A DNA stretch of 64,000 nt, taken from NCBI RefSeq assembly GCF_004923295.1, contig NZ_CP039634.1, positions 2,074,001 through 2,138,000 of the forward strand, written 5' to 3'. This DNA comes from Azospirillum sp. TSH100. GTDB taxonomy: Bacteria; Pseudomonadota; Alphaproteobacteria; Azospirillales; Azospirillaceae. The position numbers and the translations under genes were made by a program. Position 1 is the stretch's first letter, and every line of letters starts with the position of its first letter. Below are positions 32,801 to 40,973 of the stretch, piece by piece. A model generated the notes under the pieces. That model searched no databases, was not told the origin of the DNA, and saw only the letters and a program-made list of their open reading frames with translations.

Positions 32801-33327
32801 GCCCGGTACAGGCCCTGGAAATAATCCGGGTTGACGGTGGCGACGATCACCGCCTGCAGCGTGCCGTCGGCCTCGCGCAGGGCGCGGCTCATCGGCAGCA
32901 GCCAGCGTCCCGACCGCTCGCCGCCGGCGGTGCGGTCGATCAGCCCGCGTCCGGGGCGCGGATCGCCGATCTGCAGCCCGTTTCGCTGTCCAGCGGCCTG
33001 GAGGCGGAACACGTCCAGTTCCGTCAGATAGGTCCCGGCGGGATGTATGCCTTCCGTTGTGGCGATGATGCGGCCGGTGCGGTCGAGCAGCGTCAATCCG
33101 CGCAGGTGGGGCGACCGGCGCAGCCGATCGGTCAGCATGGCCGTAAGGTCGGGATCGGGTAAGCCGTCCTCCCCGGTCCAGTTGGCGTCCGACAGCGCGT
33201 CGACGATGGAGGACAGCGTCACATCCACCGACTGCACCGTGCGGGTGGTCGATACCTCCAGCGCCGCCGCAAGGCTCGAGAGGCTGGCCTCTGCCGAGTC
33301 CAGGGCAGCCTGACGCGCGGCGATCAA
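29812..33327 (-). CDS. Hybrid sensor kinase: Cache-PAS-HisKA-HATPase-REC-REC-Hpt
   Basis: A BarA-like hybrid kinase, 1171 residues from the first canonical start (TTG 33327). Visible parts are: periplasmic Cache-like sensor (about 10-270), TM (278-300), PAS (312-440), HisKA with His473 in TMSHEIRTPMNG, and HATPase (about 560-712, NLAGNAVKFTD, DTGIGIP, GTGLGLAI). Then come REC1 with Asp785 in AILDHRMPG, REC2 (LVAEDNPVNQQ, LMDVQMPVMDG) and Hpt with His1111 in AHILKGSAANVG. The open frame continues 44 codons upstream (to 33459) and there encodes the expected first TM (GGIIAFALLAVFALLI). It has no ATG, GTG or TTG, so the true 5' end is unresolved. Output is probably the receiver of the adjacent RsbW-type kinase. 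Confidence 0.9.
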   Translation of the reverse strand: MIAARQAALDSAEASLSSLAAALEVSTTRTVQSVDVTLSSIVDALSDANWTGEDGLPDPDLTAMLTDRLRRSPHLRGLTLLDRTGRIIATTEGIHPAGTYLTELDVFRLQAAGQRNGLQIGDPRPGRGLIDRTAGGERSGRWLLPMSRALREADGTLQAVIVATVNPDYFQGLYRAVQGGTGAGVGDRIALYRYDGTLLTVQPQSGEAIAKSFATTPLFRQYLPQAEYGVFRHSGTDIGAGPETRIVAYRTTPVWPLVLTVSVRSDTVLAAWHDNLRTASLLSGGMILLLGLFGLLLARSLAAQREQGKELEEANARLSAIVATAAEGIVTARPDGVIEAANPAAHAIFRCAPGELVGRSVVDLLPVDKRADAARALDGIARGSHSMDPTARGETIALRPALQGDEDRSGDRTESFPLAYSMALVKTSAGPLYAAILRDLTEEKRLEHTLRDAKERAEDGQRIKMEFLATMSHEIRTPMNGVIGMAGLLLDTPMEAEQRSYAETIRDSAESLLVIINDILDFSKIDAGRLDLEIGEFELVPMVESVAEILAPRATAKGLDLASFVPLGLRGTLLGDAGRLRQILLNLAGNAVKFTDTGSVTILLSEEAQGDGAPASGAQAAGEAGGEAGGEAGDIVCVRFEVRDTGIGIPEEERPRLFAMFTQVDSSPARRHGGTGLGLAICKRLAELMGGRIGVDSQPGMGSVFWVTVPLKRGAGSAHPPTPAGNWAGRRLLLVDDIAVNRDLLTRQLDGFGIIVETAENGGQALDRLIAAVRLGKPFDAAILDHRMPGMTGPEVAQRIRAIPELAGIRLALASSQRLEGQEPQRAPVDTHLPKPIRFSTLCQCLARLLEPQALSLTGSPATSWLNGAPGGTPASNVVPLPIRAPAAVSAGPKADAAPGVTVGRQPEQAPRARVLVAEDNPVNQQLTLALLRRAGHSAEAVSNGEEAVEAVTARPYDLVLMDVQMPVMDGLTATRRIRRLSGPAARIPVVALTANAMQGDAAICLEAGMDDYLSKPINARKLLDAIARFVHPPMNDRAETTGEATSPAPKTDSEPATVNSEKIEELRDALGKDGFALLLETFFSDSPQHLDLLRAAIARGDSTGVEREAHILKGSAANVGFDRLADAAHYLVAAARRGDLDALTATAGERVADELSTARKAAATLEAAAG
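31429..31464 (-). repeat. Three tandem 12-bp repeats inside hybrid kinase
   Basis: ACCCGCCTCGCC is repeated three times without change. On the coding strand it gives GEAG-GEAG-GEAG in the loop of the HATPase domain before DIVCVRFEVRDTG. The length is a multiple of three, so repeat slippage would keep the frame. Confidence 0.8.
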
Positions 33328-33725
33328 CTGCTGGCCCTGGTTGATCAGCAGGGCGAAGACCGCGAGAAGGGCGAAGGCGATGATGCCGCCCCGCTTTTCG
33401 AAGAGACCCTTCAGATCCGCTTTTGCTGGGGACGGGGACAGGGCTTTCGTTCCGGACGGTCAGACGTGGTGGGGCGACCAAGCCAGGGGTTGCAGGGGGT
33501 GACGCCGTCCTCCAATTGCGCTCCGTCACCGGATCACAGTCGAATCAATGCGCTCGGCCCTTGGTCCTGGTTGAAGTTTGCGTCTGAGACAATAGCAGCT
33601 ATACGCACCATACGCCAAGCATCCGCTGCCGTAAACGACCGGTCAATGCTAAGATACCGCCGCCGCTTCACGGCCCTGTGTTCGGGTCGTGAAGAACAGT
33701 GTGGTTGGTTAACGAAAGGTGTGAC

Positions 33726-34535
33726 ATGGCGACGCGCGTCCTCTGGGCAGTCGGCTTCTCAATTCTGTCGGTTCTATCGGCCGGATTCGCAGGTACCGCC
33801 ATGGCGGCCGACGGGAGACTTCAGAAAATTGCAGAACAGAAGCAACTTCGTGTCTGTTCCTGGCCTGATTACTACGCGATTTCGTTCCGCAATCCACGCA
33901 CCGGTGCGCTGGAAGGATTGGATGCCGAACTGGCACAGGCCTTCGCCGACGATTTGGGCGTTCGCCTGACGGTGGTCGAGAGCAGCTTCCCCCGCTTCAT
34001 TGAGGATCTGTTGGCCGACCGCTGCGATATCGGCATGTTCGCCATCGGCGCCACCCCGGCGCGGGCGGAGCGCGTCGCCTTCAGCCAGCCCTATCTGCGC
34101 AGCGGCATCTATGCGGTGACCACCCAGACCAACGACGGTATCCGGCGGTGGGAGGATTTGGACCGTGCCGGCAACATCGTGGCGGTGCAGAAGGATACCT
34201 ACATGGACGGCTATGCCCGCTCCGCGATGAAGGCTGCCCGCATCGTCGCCGTGAACCGCCCGCAGGAGCGCGAGGAGGAGGTGCAGTCCGGCCGTGCCGA
34301 TGCGTTCCTGACCGACTATCCCTATGGGCAGCGCATGCTGGCCTTCCACCCCTGGGCCCGGCTGGTCGTGCCGGATGTTCCGGTACAGCCGACCCCCTAT
34401 GCCTATGCAGTCGCACCCGGTGATGCGTCGTGGCTGGAGCGGGTGAACGGCTTTGTCGCCGCGATCAAGGCCGACGGCCGGTTGGAGCGCATCGCCGCCC
34501 GCTACAACCTGACCCCCATCGTGGCGCGGGACTGA
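33726..34535 (+). CDS. Family 3 extracellular solute-binding protein
   Basis: A 269-residue periplasmic binding protein of the amino-acid type (SBP_bac_3). It has a signal peptide (MATRVLWAVGFSILSVLSAG, cleaved near AMAA|DG). The core includes LRVCSWPDYYAISFRNPRTGALEGLDAELAQAFADDLGV, RCDIGMFAIGATPARAERVAFSQPYLRSGIYAVT and a C-terminal WLERVNGFVAAIKADGRLERIA. No permease or ATPase genes are near. It stands divergent from the hybrid kinase, so it may act as that sensor's ligand-binding partner rather than in transport; this is inference from position only. ATG at 33726 has AAAGG seven bases upstream. Confidence 0.9.
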   Translation: MATRVLWAVGFSILSVLSAGFAGTAMAADGRLQKIAEQKQLRVCSWPDYYAISFRNPRTGALEGLDAELAQAFADDLGVRLTVVESSFPRFIEDLLADRCDIGMFAIGATPARAERVAFSQPYLRSGIYAVTTQTNDGIRRWEDLDRAGNIVAVQKDTYMDGYARSAMKAARIVAVNRPQEREEEVQSGRADAFLTDYPYGQRMLAFHPWARLVVPDVPVQPTPYAYAVAPGDASWLERVNGFVAAIKADGRLERIAARYNLTPIVARD

Positions 34536-34617
34536 GCCGCGCCGCACGAATGCGGATTCGGGATAAATCCGGGTTAGGATGCATGCCGTCTTCCACCATT
34601 CGGCAGGGAAATCCCCG

Positions 34618-35244
34618 ATGATCCTGATCGGACAGTATGACTCGCCCTTCGTGCGCCGTGTCGCCGTTGCTTTGCGCCTTTACGGCATGGCGTACGAGCA
34701 TCGGCCCTGGTCCGTCTTTTCCGATGCGGCGGAGGTCGCGCGCTTCAACCCGCTGAAGCGGGTGCCGACGCTGGTATTGGCGGATGGCGAGGTTCTGATC
34801 GAAAGCAGCGCTATCCTTGACCATCTGGACGAGGTGGCCGGGTCGGCCCGCGCGTTGATCGCCCGCCAGGGGCCGGATCGCCGTCGGGGATTGAAATTGT
34901 GCGCGCTGGCGACCGGATTGGCCGACAAGGCGGTGAGCCTCGTCTACGAACGGGTCCTGCACAAGGAACGGTCAGACCTGTGGATGGAGCGCTGCACCGG
35001 CCAGATCGGCGCCGTTCTCGACGTGCTGGAGGCCGAGCGTGCCGCCGCCCCTGGACCCTGGTGGTTCGGCGGGCACATCGGTCATGCCGACATCGCTGCC
35101 GGCTGTGCCCTGCGCTTCGTTGGCGAGGCCCACCCGGCGGTGTTTGATCGTTCCCGTTGGCCGGCGCTCGCCGCGCATTCCGACGCCTGCGAGGCGATGG
35201 CGGAGTTCCGGGCGGTGGTGCAGCCCTTTTCGGTAAGCGCCTGA
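34618..35244 (+). CDS. Glutathione S-transferase family protein
   Basis: A 208-residue GST. It has an N-terminal thioredoxin-like domain (MILIGQYDSPFVRRVAVALRLYGMAYEHRPWSVF, then FNPLKRVPTLVLADGEVLIESSAILDHLDE with the cis-Pro and the glutathione-binding ES pair) and a C-terminal helical domain (HIGHADIAAGCALRF). The likely catalytic Ser is in YDSPFVRR. The substrate is unknown. ATG at 34618 has AGGGA nine bases upstream. A strong hairpin terminator follows. Confidence 0.9.
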   Translation: MILIGQYDSPFVRRVAVALRLYGMAYEHRPWSVFSDAAEVARFNPLKRVPTLVLADGEVLIESSAILDHLDEVAGSARALIARQGPDRRRGLKLCALATGLADKAVSLVYERVLHKERSDLWMERCTGQIGAVLDVLEAERAAAPGPWWFGGHIGHADIAAGCALRFVGEAHPAVFDRSRWPALAAHSDACEAMAEFRAVVQPFSVSA

Positions 35245-35250
35245 GGCAGC

Positions 35251-35286
35251 GCCCTCTTTCCCGTGCGACAGCATGGGAAAGAGGGC
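35251..35286. terminator. Bidirectional terminator between GST and DUF1244 genes
   Basis: A 12-bp perfect stem, GCCCTCTTTCCC (35251-35262) with GGGAAAGAGGGC (35275-35286), and a 12-nt loop, between convergent genes. Confidence 0.75.
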
Positions 35287-35294
35287 ATGGTGCC

Positions 35295-35621
35295 TTAGCG
35301 GTGGCCGCTGATCTCGGCGTGCAGCGGTTTGGTGTCCTCGAAGGTCTTCTGCTGTTCGGGGGTGGCTTCCTTCTGGTGCTTCTGCTTCCATTCGGAATAG
35401 GGCATGCCATAGACGGCAATGCGGGCGTCCTCGTCGGACAGAGGGACGCCGCGCTCCTTGGCGGCCGCGGCGTACCATTTCGACAGGCAGTTGCGGCAGA
35501 AGCCGGCGAGGTTCATCAGGTCGATGTTCTGCACGTCGGTGCGCTTGCGCAGATGCTCGACCAGACCGCGGAAGGCGGCGGCTTCCAATTCAATGCGGGT
35601 CTGGTGATCCAGATCGGCCAT
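35295..35621 (-). CDS. DUF1244 family protein
   Basis: A 108-residue protein matching the compact DUF1244 family of proteobacteria: EAAAFRGLVEHLRKRTDVQNIDLMNLAGFCRNCLSKWY, then VYGMPYSEWKQKHQKEAT. The FCRNCLSKW motif with two Cys is invariant in the family and suggests metal or redox chemistry. No function is established. ATG at 35621 has GGAGGAG upstream. It is probably monocistronic, convergent with the GST gene. Confidence 0.92.
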   Translation of the reverse strand: MADLDHQTRIELEAAAFRGLVEHLRKRTDVQNIDLMNLAGFCRNCLSKWYAAAAKERGVPLSDEDARIAVYGMPYSEWKQKHQKEATPEQQKTFEDTKPLHAEISGHR

Positions 35622-35653
35622 GGGGTCTCAACTCCTCCGGTGTTCTTGTTCAG

Positions 35654-36880
35654 TTAAGAATGGGGTGGCCGGTGCAGTGTGACCATCCGGCCATAGGGGT
35701 GGAAATCGCGTGATCCACCACCGCCGGCGATGGTGCGGACCACCGCCTCGCGGTCGGTGGCGACGAAGCCGGCGAGCGATTGGATGCCATAGTCGAACAG
35801 GCGCGGGGTCAGCGGCGTGCCGGGACCGATCATCGCTACCGTGGCACCCGCCGAAACGCGCAGCAGGCGTGGCAGGGTGCGGTTGGCGAGGGACGACGCG
35901 GTGACCGCCACCGCATCGGCGCCCGGCAAAAGCCAGTCGCAGGCCGCCTCGGGATACTCACCGTCCTGCGGGCTCATGTCGATCACCTGGGCGCGGGGCA
36001 TCCGGCGGGCAATCTGCGGAAAACCGCCGACCACCACGACCCTCCCCTCGATCGAGGCGAACAGATCCAGCCCGTTGCCGGGGACGCCGGTCAGGTCGGG
36101 CCGGTTGTAGTGCGCGTTCAGCGCCGCGACGCCTACGGAGATTTCCAGCGGGTCCCAGGAGCGGGCGGCCATGGCGGCGAGATCGCACAGAGACCTGCCG
36201 GCCCAGCGCTGCGGATCGTCCGCCGCCGCCGGGGCCTGACGGGCGGCGACGCCGAGCCCGTCGTCGGTTTCGACCAGAACCCACTTGTCCCCTGTGACGA
36301 CCCGGCGGACCTCGGCATCGGCGACGCCCTGGACCAGATCCTGGTACATCCGCTGTGGCCCCCACCAACGCCACAGCGAGTCCGGCACAGGCGACAGCAG
36401 GTCGCAAAAGCCGCCGGTCGCCGTCTGCCATTCGTTGAGATAGCGGCTGCCGACGCTGGTCAGCACCGGAATACCCTCGGCGATGGCGGTCAGCATCTCG
36501 TCGGAAAGGCCGTCGCCGTGGGATTCCAGCCCGGCGAACTTGTTGACCACCAGCAGGTCGACGCCAGACGAGACGGCGTTGCGGATCGCCTGGCTGGCCT
36601 CCGCCACTCCGGTCGGATCGACGCGGCAGGATTGGGATTCCCGGCCCAGTTTCTGGGTGATGTCATAGGCATGGCCGGTGGCGACGTCGACCAGTTCCAT
36701 CCGCTCGGCGCAGTCGTCGCCCGGCCCGTGGTTGCGTTGAACCAGCCCGCCGACGCGGAAGCCACGCCGCTTCAGCTCTGCCGAAAAGCCGTCCAGCAAT
36801 GCGTCGACGCCGTAGGAACCGGGCCCATGGATGACGGCACCGGGGCGCAGCGGCGGCAGGGAGGCGGGGAGTAGCGGCAT
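35654..36880 (-). CDS. DUF2478-DUF4213/DUF364 fusion, putative metal-handling protein
   Basis: A 408-residue protein with two unrelated halves. Residues 13-150 match DUF2478, a nucleotide-binding-like domain found near molybdenum-uptake genes: DALLDGFSAELKRRGFRVGGLVQRN, VDVATGHAYDITQKLGRES, CRVDPTGVAEAS, LLVVNKFAGLESHGDGLSDEM, IPVLTSV. Residues 195-400 match DUF4213/DUF364, annotated as putative heavy-metal chelation: ISVGVAALNAHYN, VVVVGGFPQIARRMP, WLLPGADAVAVTASSLANRTLPRLL, IGPGTPLTPRLFDYGIQSLAGF. I know of no described function for this combination. It lies 46 bases downstream of a TusA-like gene on the same strand, so the two probably form an operon. ATG at 36880 follows a GGGTGG-poor SD region. 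Confidence 0.8.
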   Translation of the reverse strand: MPLLPASLPPLRPGAVIHGPGSYGVDALLDGFSAELKRRGFRVGGLVQRNHGPGDDCAERMELVDVATGHAYDITQKLGRESQSCRVDPTGVAEASQAIRNAVSSGVDLLVVNKFAGLESHGDGLSDEMLTAIAEGIPVLTSVGSRYLNEWQTATGGFCDLLSPVPDSLWRWWGPQRMYQDLVQGVADAEVRRVVTGDKWVLVETDDGLGVAARQAPAAADDPQRWAGRSLCDLAAMAARSWDPLEISVGVAALNAHYNRPDLTGVPGNGLDLFASIEGRVVVVGGFPQIARRMPRAQVIDMSPQDGEYPEAACDWLLPGADAVAVTASSLANRTLPRLLRVSAGATVAMIGPGTPLTPRLFDYGIQSLAGFVATDREAVVRTIAGGGGSRDFHPYGRMVTLHRPPHS

Positions 36881-36926
36881 CGGGGTGGACCTTTCGCGGG
36901 ACGGCGGGCGTATGGCGACGGGCGCC

Positions 36927-37169
36927 TCAACCGCCGCGTCGGATGCGGTAGATGAAGACCGTCTTATGGACCTCGTCCGGCTGGGTCTCGTGCGACAGCA
37001 GCGCGTTGTCGGTCGTGTTGCAGAAATGCCTGAAGTCGATCACCGAGGCTGGATCGGTCGCATAGACCACCAGTTCCTCACCGGTCGCCATCCCGTTCAG
37101 CAGGGCGCGGGTGCGCAGGATGGGCAATGGGCAATGCAGCCCCTTCACGTCAAGCTCTCTCACCGGCAC
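36927..37169 (-). CDS. TusA/SirA-family sulfur carrier protein
   Basis: An 80-residue TusA-like protein with the conserved sulfur-accepting Cys in LDVKGLHCPLPILRTRALLNG, followed by ELVVYATDPASVIDFRHFC. TusA proteins carry persulfide sulfur to tRNA thiolation, molybdenum cofactor or sulfur-oxidation enzymes. I chose GTG at 37169 because GGAG lies eight bases upstream and the protein then has normal family length (GTG 37172 is also possible). It is directly upstream of the DUF2478-DUF364 gene, which together suggest a role in metal-sulfur cofactor supply. Confidence 0.85.
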   Translation of the reverse strand: MPVRELDVKGLHCPLPILRTRALLNGMATGEELVVYATDPASVIDFRHFCNTTDNALLSHETQPDEVHKTVFIYRIRRGG

Positions 37170-37390
37170 CACGCCCGCTCCACACTGGTTGAGGACGAAT
37201 TCCTTAACAAGGACGTATGACTGTAGCGGGTTCGTCCACGCTTCTCCAGACCGGCGGCCGAAAGGTCGCATGCACGACGGGTGTCCCTGAACCGCGATTT
37301 TCCGCCGCCGGCGCTGTTGTACGGCGCAATCGCAGGGAACTTGCCCCTAGAAAACTTGCCCAGAGAAATTTTGGCGGAAGGACAGCGGTC

Positions 37391-38422
37391 ATGGCGAAGC
37401 GGCACGGCAATGATATGAGCGAAAAGGTGGTGGTCATCACCGGTGCTTCCAGCGGCATCGGCCGGGCGACTGCCTTGGAGTTCGCCAGCCAGGGGGCGGC
37501 GGTGATCCTGGCCGCCCGGCGGATGGCCGCTCTGCACGAGGTCGCGGAGGACTGTATCAGCGCCGGCGGCCGGGCCATGGTGGTGCCGACCGACGTGACA
37601 GACCAGCGCGCGATGCAGGCTTTGGCCGACCGAGCCATTCAGGCCTTTGGTGGCATCGACGTCTGGGTGAACAATGCCGGCGTCATTGCTTTCGGCCGTT
37701 TCGAGGACATCCCCGACGAGGTGTTCGAGCAGGTGGTGCGCACCGACTTATTCGGCATGGTCCATGGCTGCCGCGCCGTACTTCCCCATTTCCTCGACCG
37801 CGGCGAGGGGATCATCATCAACACCGCGTCGATGGTGTCCAACATCGGCCAGCGCTATGCCACCCCCTACACCGCGGCGAAGTTTGCTGTGCGCGGCTTC
37901 TCCGAATCCCTGCGGCAGGAGCTGGTGGACGAACCGGACATCCATGTCTGCATGGTCATGCCGGCCTCCATCGACACGCCGTTGTGGCAACATGCCGCCA
38001 ACTACACCGGCCGGGCGATCAAGCCGTTGAACCCGATCCATCCGCCGGAAGAGGTCGCCGCCGCCATCCTGTCGCTGGCGGCCAATCCCCAGCGCGAACT
38101 GTTCGTCGGGGCCGAAGGGCGCCTCGCTGCCGTCGGCAACGCCATGGCGCCGCAGATGACGGAACGGGCGGTGGCCCACACCATCGAGCGCGACATGTTC
38201 CAGAACCGTTCGGCACCCGACACGCCGGGTGGCGTTCTGACCGCCATGCCGGAATATCAGGGCGCCAGCGGTGGCTGGTTGGAGCGACGGCCAACCCGCA
38301 GCCGGGGCGGGGAAGTGGGGCGGCAGCGCTCTTTCTCCTGGACCAACCTGACGCTGTTCCTGCTGCCGGTGGTGCTGGCCAGCCGTCCGCTGGGTGGTGG
38401 CCGGATGCGCCACGTTTGGTGA
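37391..38422 (+). CDS. Short-chain dehydrogenase/reductase
   Basis: A 343-residue SDR oxidoreductase with the Rossmann motif VITGASSGIGRATALEFA, NNAG in DVWVNNAGVIAFGRFED, the catalytic Ser in IINTASMVSN, and YTAAKFAVRGFSESLRQEL with the Tyr and Lys of the active site. It is longer than a classical SDR (about 250); the C-terminal 80 residues are Arg/Gly-rich and end in a hydrophobic helix (WTNLTLFLLPVVLASRPL), a possible membrane anchor. The substrate is unknown. ATG at 37391 has AAGGA nine bases upstream; ATG 37415 is a second option. It is divergent from the tusA-like gene. Confidence 0.88.
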   Translation: MAKRHGNDMSEKVVVITGASSGIGRATALEFASQGAAVILAARRMAALHEVAEDCISAGGRAMVVPTDVTDQRAMQALADRAIQAFGGIDVWVNNAGVIAFGRFEDIPDEVFEQVVRTDLFGMVHGCRAVLPHFLDRGEGIIINTASMVSNIGQRYATPYTAAKFAVRGFSESLRQELVDEPDIHVCMVMPASIDTPLWQHAANYTGRAIKPLNPIHPPEEVAAAILSLAANPQRELFVGAEGRLAAVGNAMAPQMTERAVAHTIERDMFQNRSAPDTPGGVLTAMPEYQGASGGWLERRPTRSRGGEVGRQRSFSWTNLTLFLLPVVLASRPLGGGRMRHVW

Positions 38423-38526
38423 CCAGTCTGCAGCAGGCTTGATCCGGCGGTCCGGAGCCGTTATACGCTCGCCCCTTTTCCGGTGCGGCGGCTGGCCGCA
38501 CCGGTCATCCGGGCAGGAGGCGGGAC

Positions 38527-39777
38527 ATGACGGCGTGCGGGCTCGATTTCGGCACCTCGAACACGACGCTGGGCGTGCAGGACGCCGATGGCTTCCGGCT
38601 GCTGGCGCTCGACGGCACACGGACGACCCTGCCGACCGCGGTGTTCTTCGATTTCGAGCATGACCGGACCACCATCGGGCAGGCCGCCATCGACGGCTAT
38701 GTGTCGGGGGTGGAAGGGCGGTTGATGCGCTCCATCAAGTCGATGCTCGGCACCGACCTGATCGATGCCGATACGGCACTCCGCAAGGGCCGCATCAGCT
38801 TCCGCGCGGTGATCGGCACCTTCCTCGATCTGGTGAAGAAGCGGGCCGAGGATGCGCTGGGCGGCGAGCTGGGCGACGTGGTGGTCGGCCGGCCGGTCCA
38901 TTTCGTCGACGGCGATGCGGCCGGCGATGCCTCGGCGGAAGAGACGCTGGGGCAGATCGCGCGCGCTGCCGGCTTCCGCAACGTCTCCTTCCAGTTCGAG
39001 CCCATCGCCGCCGCCCTCGATTACGAACAGCAGGTGACGGGGGAGGAACTGGCGTTGATCGCCGACATCGGCGGCGGCACCTCGGACTTCTCCGTCGTGC
39101 GCATCGGGCCGGAACGGCGCGTTAAGGCCGACCGGGCCGGCGACATCCTCGCCAACGACGGCATCCGCGTCGGCGGCACCGATTTCGACCGCGACCTCAG
39201 CCTTGCCACCGCCATGCCGGAGCTGGGGCTGGGCAGCGCCATGAAGCGCGCCGGGCTGCTGGCACCGCGAAGCATCTATTACGATCTGGCGACCTGGGCG
39301 AAGATCAATTTCCTCTACACCGCCAAGGCGATGGCCGAGCTGGAGCGTTTGCAACGCGATTCCGCCGAGCCGGAGAAGATCGAACGGCTGATCGGCATCG
39401 TCGAGCATCGCCAGGGCCATGCCCTGGCAATGGCGGTGGAGCGCACCAAGATCGCCCTGTCCGATCATGAGGCGGCGGAATTGGCACTGGATTGGGGCAA
39501 CGGGGATCTGGCGCTGGCGGTGGACCGCGGGGCGCTGAACCGCGCGACGGGCTCGCTGGCGGCGCGGATCGGAACCCGCATCCGCGACTGTCTGTCCGAC
39601 GCCGGCGTGACCGCCGACCGCATCGACGCGGTGTTCCTGACCGGCGGCTCCACCCTGCTGCCCCAGGTCCGCGCGGCGATCCTGGCCGAGGCTCCGGACG
39701 CGCGGGTGGTGGAGGGAAACATCTTCGGCTCCGTCGGCCTCGGGCTGACGGTGGAGGCTTTGCGGCGGTACGGCTGA
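38527..39777 (+). CDS. yegD: YegD-like Hsp70 family protein
   Basis: A 416-residue actin-fold ATPase related to the Hsp70 homologue YegD. It has the phosphate-1 loop GLDFGTSNTTLGV, GRPVHF, phosphate-2 ALIADIGGGTSDFSVVRI, GGTDFDRDL, VERTKIALSD, and the adenosine loop AVFLTGGSTLLPQVRAAI. It ends after the nucleotide-binding domain, with no canonical substrate-binding domain, as is usual for YegD. Physiological role is unclear. ATG at 38527 has AGGAGG seven bases upstream. It is convergent with the Mrp gene. Confidence 0.9.
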   Translation: MTACGLDFGTSNTTLGVQDADGFRLLALDGTRTTLPTAVFFDFEHDRTTIGQAAIDGYVSGVEGRLMRSIKSMLGTDLIDADTALRKGRISFRAVIGTFLDLVKKRAEDALGGELGDVVVGRPVHFVDGDAAGDASAEETLGQIARAAGFRNVSFQFEPIAAALDYEQQVTGEELALIADIGGGTSDFSVVRIGPERRVKADRAGDILANDGIRVGGTDFDRDLSLATAMPELGLGSAMKRAGLLAPRSIYYDLATWAKINFLYTAKAMAELERLQRDSAEPEKIERLIGIVEHRQGHALAMAVERTKIALSDHEAAELALDWGNGDLALAVDRGALNRATGSLAARIGTRIRDCLSDAGVTADRIDAVFLTGGSTLLPQVRAAILAEAPDARVVEGNIFGSVGLGLTVEALRRYG

Positions 39778-39783
39778 AAGGAC

Positions 39784-39808
39784 GGGGTGGGAGGTTGATT
39801 CCCACCCC
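39784..39808. terminator. Bidirectional terminator between yegD and mrp
   Basis: GGGGTGGGA (39784-39792), loop GGTTGAT, TCCCACCCC (39800-39808), between convergent genes. Confidence 0.6.
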
Positions 39809-39815
39809 TGACCGA

Positions 39816-40973
39816 TCACTGCACCACGATGCGCGGCGCCGCACGGCCGCCGGTGCCGCCGCCGATCTTCTCCCACAGGCGGGTTGCGATCCGGCGATAG
39901 GCCTGGGCATGCTCCGAATCCGGCTGCGACACCACGATCGGCTGCCCCTGGTCGGAGGTCTCGCGGATCGACAGGTGCAGCGGAATCTCGCCCAGGAACT
40001 CCATGCCCAGATCGTCGGCCTCCTTGCGGGCGCCGCCGTGGCTGAAGATGTCGGTGCGGTGGCCGCAGTTGGGGCAGCAGAAATAGCTCATGTTCTCGAT
40101 GATGCCCAACACCGGGACATCGACGCGGCGGAACATGTTCAGCCCCTTGCGGGCGTCCAGCAGGGCGATGTCCTGCGGGGTGGAGACGATCACGGCACCC
40201 GCCAGCGGCACCTGCTGCGCCATGGTCAGCTGGGCGTCGCCGGTTCCCGGCGGCATGTCCACCACCAGAACGTCGAGCGTGCCCCAGTTCACGTCGCGCA
40301 GCATCTGCTGCAACGCGCTCATCACCATCGGCCCGCGCCAGATCATCGGCGTGTCCTCTGCAACCAGAAAGCCCATGGACATCACCTTGACGCCGTAATT
40401 CTCCATCGGCTCCAGGCGCTTGCCGTCGGGGCTGTTGGGTCGCCCGGCGATACCCATCATCCGCGGCATCGACGGGCCGTAGATGTCGGCATCAAGCAGA
40501 CCGACCTTCAGTCCGTTCGCGGCCAGCGCCAGCGCGAGGTTGGCCGACGTGGTCGACTTGCCGACACCACCCTTGCCGGATGCCACCGCGACGATGGCCT
40601 TCACGCCGGGGACCAGAGGCTTCTGCGGATCGTTCTGCGGTGCAGCCTGGGGGGCGCCACCATGGGAGTGACCATGGGAATGCCCATGCGAGTGGCCCTG
40701 TTGCGGTGCCGCCTGGGGCGCGGCCCGGTGGGCGGTCAGCACGGCGGTGACCGAAAGGACGCCGGGCAGGGCGTCGACCGCCTTCTCCGCCGCGTGGCGC
40801 AGGGGTTCCGCCTGGGCGCCGCGCTTGGGGTCCACTTCGATGGAAAAAGCGACATGCCCGTCGCGCACCACGAGGCCCGACAACATGCCCAGGCTGACGA
40901 TGTCGCCGCCCCGGTCCGGGTCGATGACGGTCTTCAGCGCCTGCATGACTTGAGCTTCGCTGATCTGCGCCAT
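39816..40973 (-). CDS. apbC: Mrp/ApbC-type iron-sulfur cluster carrier ATPase
   Basis: A 385-residue P-loop ATPase of the Mrp/NBP35 family that carries and inserts Fe-S clusters. It has an N-terminal MIP18-like domain (1-85, [16 protein letters not shown]) and a linker. The deviant Walker A is [20 protein letters not shown] (133-141 core), followed by [26 protein letters not shown] and the cluster-binding CxxC in [14 protein letters not shown]. The linker contains a His/Gly/Ser run ([14 protein letters not shown], 93-106), which could bind metal and is unusual for this family. ATG at 40973. Confidence 0.94.

Follow-up and report, generated by a model that had tools for sequence, protein, structure and literature searches.

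To our knowledge, the route by which molybdate, and especially vanadate, passes from its importer to cofactor assembly is only partly known. The paper on the DUF364 structure proposed a role in heavy-metal chelation and, in its accessible part, noted molybdate, tungstate and vanadium neighbours (PMC2954201), so the link between DUF364 and metals is not new. A 5' regulatory RNA has also been reported for a Serratia DUF364 gene (PMC4046660, as far as its accessible text goes). DUF2478 receives a single mention, in a table, in the accessible part of a further paper (PMC9674854). Phosphonate-type importer genes are predicted to bring in vanadate in Azotobacter (PMC9542535, accessible sections), and a V-nitrogenase, probably transferred from Rhodopseudomonas palustris, has been reported in Azospirillum brasilense Sp245 (PMC3899980). 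The accessible text of the latter paper mentions neither a fusion gene in the V-nitrogenase cluster nor DUF2478. V-nitrogenase in Azospirillum, considered here as a candidate novelty, was set aside because of that earlier report. In the open-access literature, judged by titles and the beginnings of abstracts, no description was found of a fusion of the two families or of DUF2478 in Mo metabolism.

Such a fusion is encoded in the window, by which we mean the whole 64-kb stretch of Azospirillum DNA that was analysed. The genes of the locus are as follows.

35654..36880, minus strand: DUF2478-DUF4213-DUF364 fusion gene, an ORF of 408 aa (Pfam and AlphaFold2 model)
36927..37169, minus strand: tusA-like gene, 80 aa from a GTG at 37169, with the CPxP sulfur-carrier motif (Pfam TusA)
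35295..35621, minus strand: DUF1244 gene, third of the apparent operon (Pfam E 3.4e-38; relatives 2o35 and 3fyb)
37217-38422, opposite strand to the operon: flanking SDR gene
34579-35244, opposite strand to the operon: flanking GST gene

In the list of ORFs, the tusA-like frame (36927-37271, minus strand) stays open to an ATG at 37271 and would give 114 aa; the 80-aa reading agrees with a 243-bp CDS annotated in A. lipoferum 4B. The end of tusA, the upstream gene, is separated from the start of the fusion by 46 bp, and the fusion from the DUF1244 gene by 32 bp. Given these gaps, the shared strand and the position of the SDR and GST genes on the other strand, tusA, the fusion and the DUF1244 gene are likely to form one operon. 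A preliminary description of this DNA had placed a fusion 46 bp behind a TusA gene, as the ORF list and Pfam bear out, and had missed both the third gene and DUF4213, which usually accompanies DUF364 on its N-terminal side. The fusion is the sole DUF2478 match and the sole DUF364 match in its own genome. A promoter scan returned one weak promoter-like site against 0.3 expected, and a terminator scan returned none. Rfam searches for a riboswitch across window positions 33000-40000 gave only matches below gathering scores, and no FNR-like or Mo-box-like site was present upstream of tusA at up to two mismatches in 44 loci.

Two further features of this region deserve a separate mention. The DUF1244 protein (35295-35621, minus strand) contains a CRNC motif, and its solved relatives, 2o35 and 3fyb, bear no function in their names. 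Further upstream of the operon, past the SDR and Hsp70-like genes, lies a gene for an Mrp/ApbC iron-sulfur carrier (39816-40973, minus strand), which recurs in 9 of 11 related loci.

The fusion protein resolves into the following domains and motifs.

36365..36835, minus strand: DUF2478 half, residues 16-172 (Pfam E 2.6e-47), with a THEP1-like fold lacking Walker A
36107..36346, minus strand: DUF4213 domain, residues 179-258 (Pfam E 8.2e-15)
35678..36049, minus strand: DUF364 domain, residues 278-401 (Pfam E 2.4e-33), with DUF4213 the fold of 3l5o
36617..36628, minus strand: CRVD motif (C85, D88), its Cys invariant in 34/34 DUF2478 rows
36506..36544, minus strand: NKFAGLESHGDGL motif (N113-L125), its Phe, Glu and last Gly invariant in 34/34 rows

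The two family names given in the preliminary description hold up against profiles: DUF2478 (PF10649) scores 160.8 bits against a cut-off of 22.3 over profile positions 3-159 of 159, and DUF4213 (PF13938; 55.3 bits against 23.5) is followed by DUF364 (PF04016; 115.3 against 23). By Pfam, DUF2478 and DUF364 are both full length, or nearly so, in the fusion. The AlphaFold2 model, built with 41 aligned rows, has a pLDDT of 91.7 and a pTM of 0.90. Its residues 171-404 superimpose on 3l5o with Z 30.8 and an rmsd of 2.0 over 231 aligned residues, giving the two-domain DUF4213-DUF364 fold. Residues G210, N255, G285, P288, N333, G352, P353 and G371 of the C-terminal half are kept in 97-100% of 37 rows; two of them, N255 and G285, are equivalent in the alignment to Asn83 and Gly129 in the pocket of Dhaf4260.

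For the N-terminal half, residues 11-178 of the model align with the human THEP1-type NTPase 2i3b with Z 14.6 and an rmsd of 3.2 over 161 residues. The model of a lone DUF2478 protein (L179, pLDDT 93.8) gives Z 15.2 with 2i3b and 14.9 with Aquifex THEP1 (1ye8), the next row being at 9.3. The predicted models thus agree on a THEP1 (PF03266) fold, with Z 14.6-15.2 and rmsd 3.2-3.3 against 2i3b. This reading rests on VIA-align and on the NTPase_1 profile, which at an E threshold of 1 matches 26/34 DUF2478 rows (best E 2.4e-11) and does not match the window's own fusion protein. It does not rest on Foldseek, which gave the lone DUF2478 model no match at E 0.001 or better and no THEP1 among its best 50. 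The full Walker A motif, G-x4-GK[ST], occurs in 0/34 aligned DUF2478 rows, and fusion residues 18-26 read HGPGSYGVD; the half is therefore not classed as a THEP1 NTPase. The nucleotide-like domain proposed earlier thus stands as regards its predicted fold and falls as regards Walker A, and a nucleotide role for the DUF2478 half appears doubtful. Four residues are invariant in 34/34 DUF2478 rows, namely Cys (C85), Phe (F115), Glu (E119) and Gly (G124) in fusion numbering.

Within the DUF2478 family, a subgroup of eight loci (L181, L192, L198, L183, L193, L184, L189 and L196) has EKFG in place of NKFG. Three of them (L181, L192 and L198) adjoin genes that by eye resemble those for ring-hydroxylating dioxygenases, and six of the eight are without a Mo marker; the subgroup perhaps represents a second role of the family.

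The preliminary description allowed that the fusion might be an event of one genome. It is found throughout the genus, in three further genera of the family and in two other families. A DUF2478 match is present in each of the 44 other genomes of the genus. In the 44 core Azospirillum loci (the window's own genome and 43 others), tusA adjoins the fusion in 44/44 and the DUF1244 gene does so in 42/44; a fragmented assembly (G037) has no DUF364 and stands outside this set. Across the order, DUF364 is present in 54/82 genomes, with two frames not of fusion length, a lone DUF364 (G053) and a fusion split by a frame change (G035). Of 385 genomes drawn evenly from the class, 38 had a match: five carried the full-length fusion (G000, G036, G051, G082 and G124), five the DUF364 half only and 28 the DUF2478 half only. 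One of the 38 (G456, E 7.6e-4) was left out of the locus analysis, as was a second, stop-ridden place in G472. Outside the genus, the fusion occurs in g4, g6 and g8 of the same family and in G082 and G124 of the two other families, and DUF2478 is missing from 74/145 relatives.

Gene neighbourhoods of the stand-alone families point towards molybdenum and nitrogenase. Mo genes accompany stand-alone DUF2478 in nine of the ten annotated plasmid loci opened, with none in the remaining one. Four of these loci contain narGHJI, three of them together with MoeA/Glp and one also with MoaA and Mog. The others, one locus each, have Glp with modAB, Glp-MobB-MobA-FdhD, Glp with a molybdopterin subunit, a molybdopterin oxidoreductase with Glp and MoaA, and TorA. 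DUF2478 also stands with mop inside a nif cluster in g2 (L089), g12 (L098 and L130) and g3 (L090), and the Mop and NifB proteins of L089 exceed NCBIfam cut-offs. Here and below, neighbours without HMM, annotation or marker support were named by eye from sequence.

These associations were compared with background using 29 marker proteins drawn from loci already read (tblastn with E up to 1e-8, covering half the length or more), with 35 stretches at round coordinates in genomes carrying DUF2478 or DUF364 as controls. The 23 DUF2478-only loci of the class scan were unseen when the markers were chosen. A Mo or nif marker lay within about 10 kb in 11/23 of them against 3/35 controls (Fisher p 0.001), or 8/23 against 0/35 at 40% identity or more (p 3e-4), the p values here and below being only a guide since the loci are related to one another. 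The marker at L177 falls outside the stricter count at 39.6% identity. Excluded from the 23 is L188 (G339), linked to a record that supplied markers (L047); its inclusion would give 12/24. L190, which lies behind a NapA-type molybdopterin oxidoreductase and NapC that the markers missed, is uncounted. Twelve of the 23 have no marker, and of three DUF2478-only loci read earlier, L152 and L153 likewise lack markers and L154 shows nothing beyond weak ones. For DUF364, the DUF364-only loci of the phylum scan, all eight of which had been read beforehand, carried markers in 6/8 against 3/35 controls (p 3e-4): nif or mod/mop markers at L159 and L161-L165, none at L160 and L166. L085 supplied markers and is excluded from the eight; with it, the count is 7/9. 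Among the class-scan DUF364-only loci, markers were found in 3/5 (L083, L085 and L087) and none in the other two; L167 has MoaA, and a Methylococcus plasmid locus (L168) has no marker. The association with Mo enzymes and nitrogenase envisaged in the preliminary description is therefore supported for both halves.

The fusion itself also has copies in metal loci. An alternative-nitrogenase D subunit is present in 7/145 relatives, scoring 691-714 bits with the ANFD model where the best of the other genomes reach at most 285; a vnf cluster was found in 1/398 phylum genomes. By eye the enzymes had been taken for Fe-only (anf) nitrogenases, a reading rejected on the scores of L094, 990.5 with VNFD against a cut-off of 823.1 and 705.8 with ANFD against 873.8. 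The D subunit of L094 is VnfD, with VnfG and VnfK also above their NCBIfam cut-offs; that of G124 scores 979.6 with VNFD, and those of the other five genomes are 89-93% identical to the L094 VnfD. A member of a paralogous fusion clade lies at most 13 kb from vnfD in six of these seven relatives. A phosphonate-type importer shares the stretch with the fusion and vnf in L094, L091, L109 and L113 (a marker in all four), PhnE of L094 scoring 255 bits against a cut-off of 216.7. In G070 the importer lies on a different contig, together with a second copy of the fusion (L112), and a 20-kb stretch of G124 yielded no importer. A further copy in G066 stands beside modE-modA-modB-modC and mop (L110), and G049 has a DUF364 copy in a similar modABC-mop-type locus (L114). 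The seventh genome, G050, has vnf and the importer, with DUF364 absent from the genome. Together with the relatives that lack DUF2478, this indicates that the fusion is not essential to the use of Mo or V.

Of the 44 other Azospirillum-genus genomes, two (G022 and G040) have vnfDGK with a phosphonate-type importer (L094 2960-10456 and L091 8977-18657). A gene for a xylose-isomerase-like TIM barrel recurs in vnf clusters behind NifX-like genes (L081 8454-9248, L109 11613-12701, L118 6951-7820 and L117 7858-8751), assigned as Pfam AP_endonuc_2 in L081 and by eye in the other three.

These paralogues in vnf and modABC-mop loci, together with moeA beside the operon in part of the genus (below), give the fusion a metal linkage of its own. 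The link to metals is real, mostly at relatives and paralogues instead of the window locus, where the Mo/V neighbourhood does not rise above background. On balance, we favour a view in which the fusion is probably an accessory protein of Mo supply (in the paralogous clade, of V supply), acting between oxyanion uptake and Mo/V cofactor assembly. This view builds on the domain composition, the predicted folds, the absence of Walker A, the residues conserved in DUF4213-DUF364 and the genes that recur near relatives and paralogues: mod/mop, phosphonate-type (vanadate-type) importers, Moco genes, nitrate reductase, nif and vnf. The DUF4213-DUF364 cleft would hold a metal-bearing ligand, whether the oxyanion, its chelate or a pterin adduct. 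The THEP1-like DUF2478 half, presumably unable to use a P-loop, could be a module for docking or specificity that works via the invariant Cys and the F-x-x-x-E residues, and TusA and DUF1244 would be additions in Azospirillum.

The history of the two halves adds to this picture. For the DUF364 half, the tree unites the vnf/mod-linked copies in a single clade (100/97) that groups with the g8 and g4 copies (95/94), and a single clade of all fusions is not rejected (AU p 0.142). In the DUF2478-half tree, a branch (94/97, not starred) has all fusions on the same side. When 12 core proteins are compared, the DUF2478 half is the more conserved of the two in 66/66 pairs, as it is in only 3/21 pairs among seven proteins of the vnf-linked clade, and the Cys motif is gone in 8/8 members of the vnf/mod-linked clade. 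Pairwise conservation and Cys motif loss thus indicate that the C-terminal half is kept in every setting and that constraint on the N-terminal half is stronger in the core copies. The loss of the Cys does not simply follow V versus Mo, given that one of the eight copies adjoins modABC.

The surroundings of the core copy invite other explanations. The window is free of marker genes, as are 12 of 13 Azospirillum loci spanning 19-21 kb and the surroundings of six fusions from other genera (L079, L080, L082, L156, L157 and L158); the thirteenth locus (L044, A. brasilense) has a gene for a MoeA with three MoeA domains. With that gene as query, MoeA was found directly behind the DUF1244 gene, in convergent orientation, in 17/44 core loci, 11 of them as a partial gene at the end of a short stretch, a count to which loci with shorter flanks could not contribute. 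This arrangement may reflect a single event in one lineage. MoeA_N is matched five times in the genome to which the window belongs, each time outside the window. Three species (G027, G029 and G031) retain the operon although nothing in them matches the nitrogenase D model; the core copy is thus not bound to nitrogen fixation. One could argue that the Azospirillum copy no longer belongs to Mo metabolism and works with TusA and DUF1244 in sulfur or redox homeostasis, which would accommodate the genus-wide operon, the GST, SDR, Hsp70-like and Mrp/ApbC neighbours of the window clade, the scarcity of markers and these three species. We consider this quite unlikely: it sits badly with moeA directly behind the operon in 17/44 loci, with the retention in core copies of the Cys and F-x-x-x-E motifs of the Mo-linked stand-alone DUF2478 proteins, and with the stronger conservation of the DUF2478 half in every core pair.

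The TusA partner raises a related question. The window protein matches TusA in Pfam (E 1.9e-17; 63.3 bits against a cut-off of 28.6) and E. coli TusA (1dcj/3lvj) at E 2e-9, and its sulfur-carrying CPxP Cys motif is intact in 44/44 loci. It reaches 48.5 bits against the NCBIfam equivalog cut-off of 78 and for that reason is called TusA-like rather than an equivalog; the genome has three TusA matches, of which it is one. The preliminary description took the combination of a sulfur carrier, a nucleotide-like domain and a metal-binding domain to suggest assembly or insertion of a metal-sulfur cofactor, for example for Mo enzymes. On this reading, the fusion would hold a metal and TusA would supply it with persulfide sulfur, perhaps yielding a thiomolybdate-like intermediate. 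This would explain tusA directly upstream with an intact motif in every core locus, and FdhD, a sulfurtransferase for Mo enzymes, adjoins DUF2478 in L172 and lies about 1 kb from DUF364 in L085. However, the pairing of TusA with the fusion was observed in Azospirillum alone: across 79 further stretches, almost all of them centred on DUF2478 or DUF364 genes, tblastn (E up to 1e-3) recovered a single TusA, at a distance of over 6 kb. None is near the vnf-linked fusions, and the window has no marker genes. The proposal as a whole is very unlikely, and its sulfur part is weak because the pairing is a matter of operon order in one genus. Highly improbable is an extended version in which DUF2478, as a Walker-less THEP1 relative, would dock a DUF4213-DUF364 carrier of molybdate or vanadate on its way from importer to cofactor assembly, with a private TusA adding sulfur in Azospirillum so that a thio-metalate is delivered. 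A different possibility, following Miller et al. 2010, is that DUF364 enzymes make or modify a flavin- or pterin-like metal-binding chelator; the accessible text of that paper bases this on a conserved-residue pocket, similarity to precorrin methyltransferases and metal-gene context (PMC2954201). The fusion retains several of the pocket residues (Asn83, Gly129, Thr174 and Thr182 among them), yet Glu148 is replaced by Asp and Asp180 by Asn, and no chelator pathway was recognised by eye in the neighbourhoods read, which leaves this reading rather unlikely.

The fusion brings together two conserved families without assigned function that occur in a common setting, near genes for nitrate reductase and Moco and near nif and vnf genes. 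A natural fusion in a fixed operon of a plant-associated genus offers a direct test, and the V-nitrogenase clusters of the family gain a partner gene of which no description was found in the open-access literature (titles and beginnings of abstracts).

Comparison with known systems brings out what is particular to this locus. The tusA product shares the family profile and CPxP motif of the TusA sulfurtransferases; it differs in lying under the NCBIfam equivalog cut-off and in being one of three matches in its genome. The phosphonate-type importer genes beside vnf and the fusion resemble those of the vanadate-type importer VodABC of Azotobacter, whereas the accessible text on the latter names no DUF2478 or DUF364 protein (PMC9542535), and the importer here is a putative vanadate type. 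THEP1/HCR-NTPases (1ye8, 2i3b; NTPase_1) resemble DUF2478 in predicted fold and profile matches; DUF2478 lacks their G-x4-GK[ST] and has its own invariant Cys, Phe, Glu and Gly. The closest counterparts of the C-terminal part are Dhaf4260 (PDB 3l5o) and PH1506 (3npg), which share its two-domain fold (Z 30.8 and 26.8) at 30% and 20-21% identity, respectively. Both are stand-alone proteins, whereas the window protein carries DUF2478 in front and has tusA and the DUF1244 gene as companions in its apparent operon.
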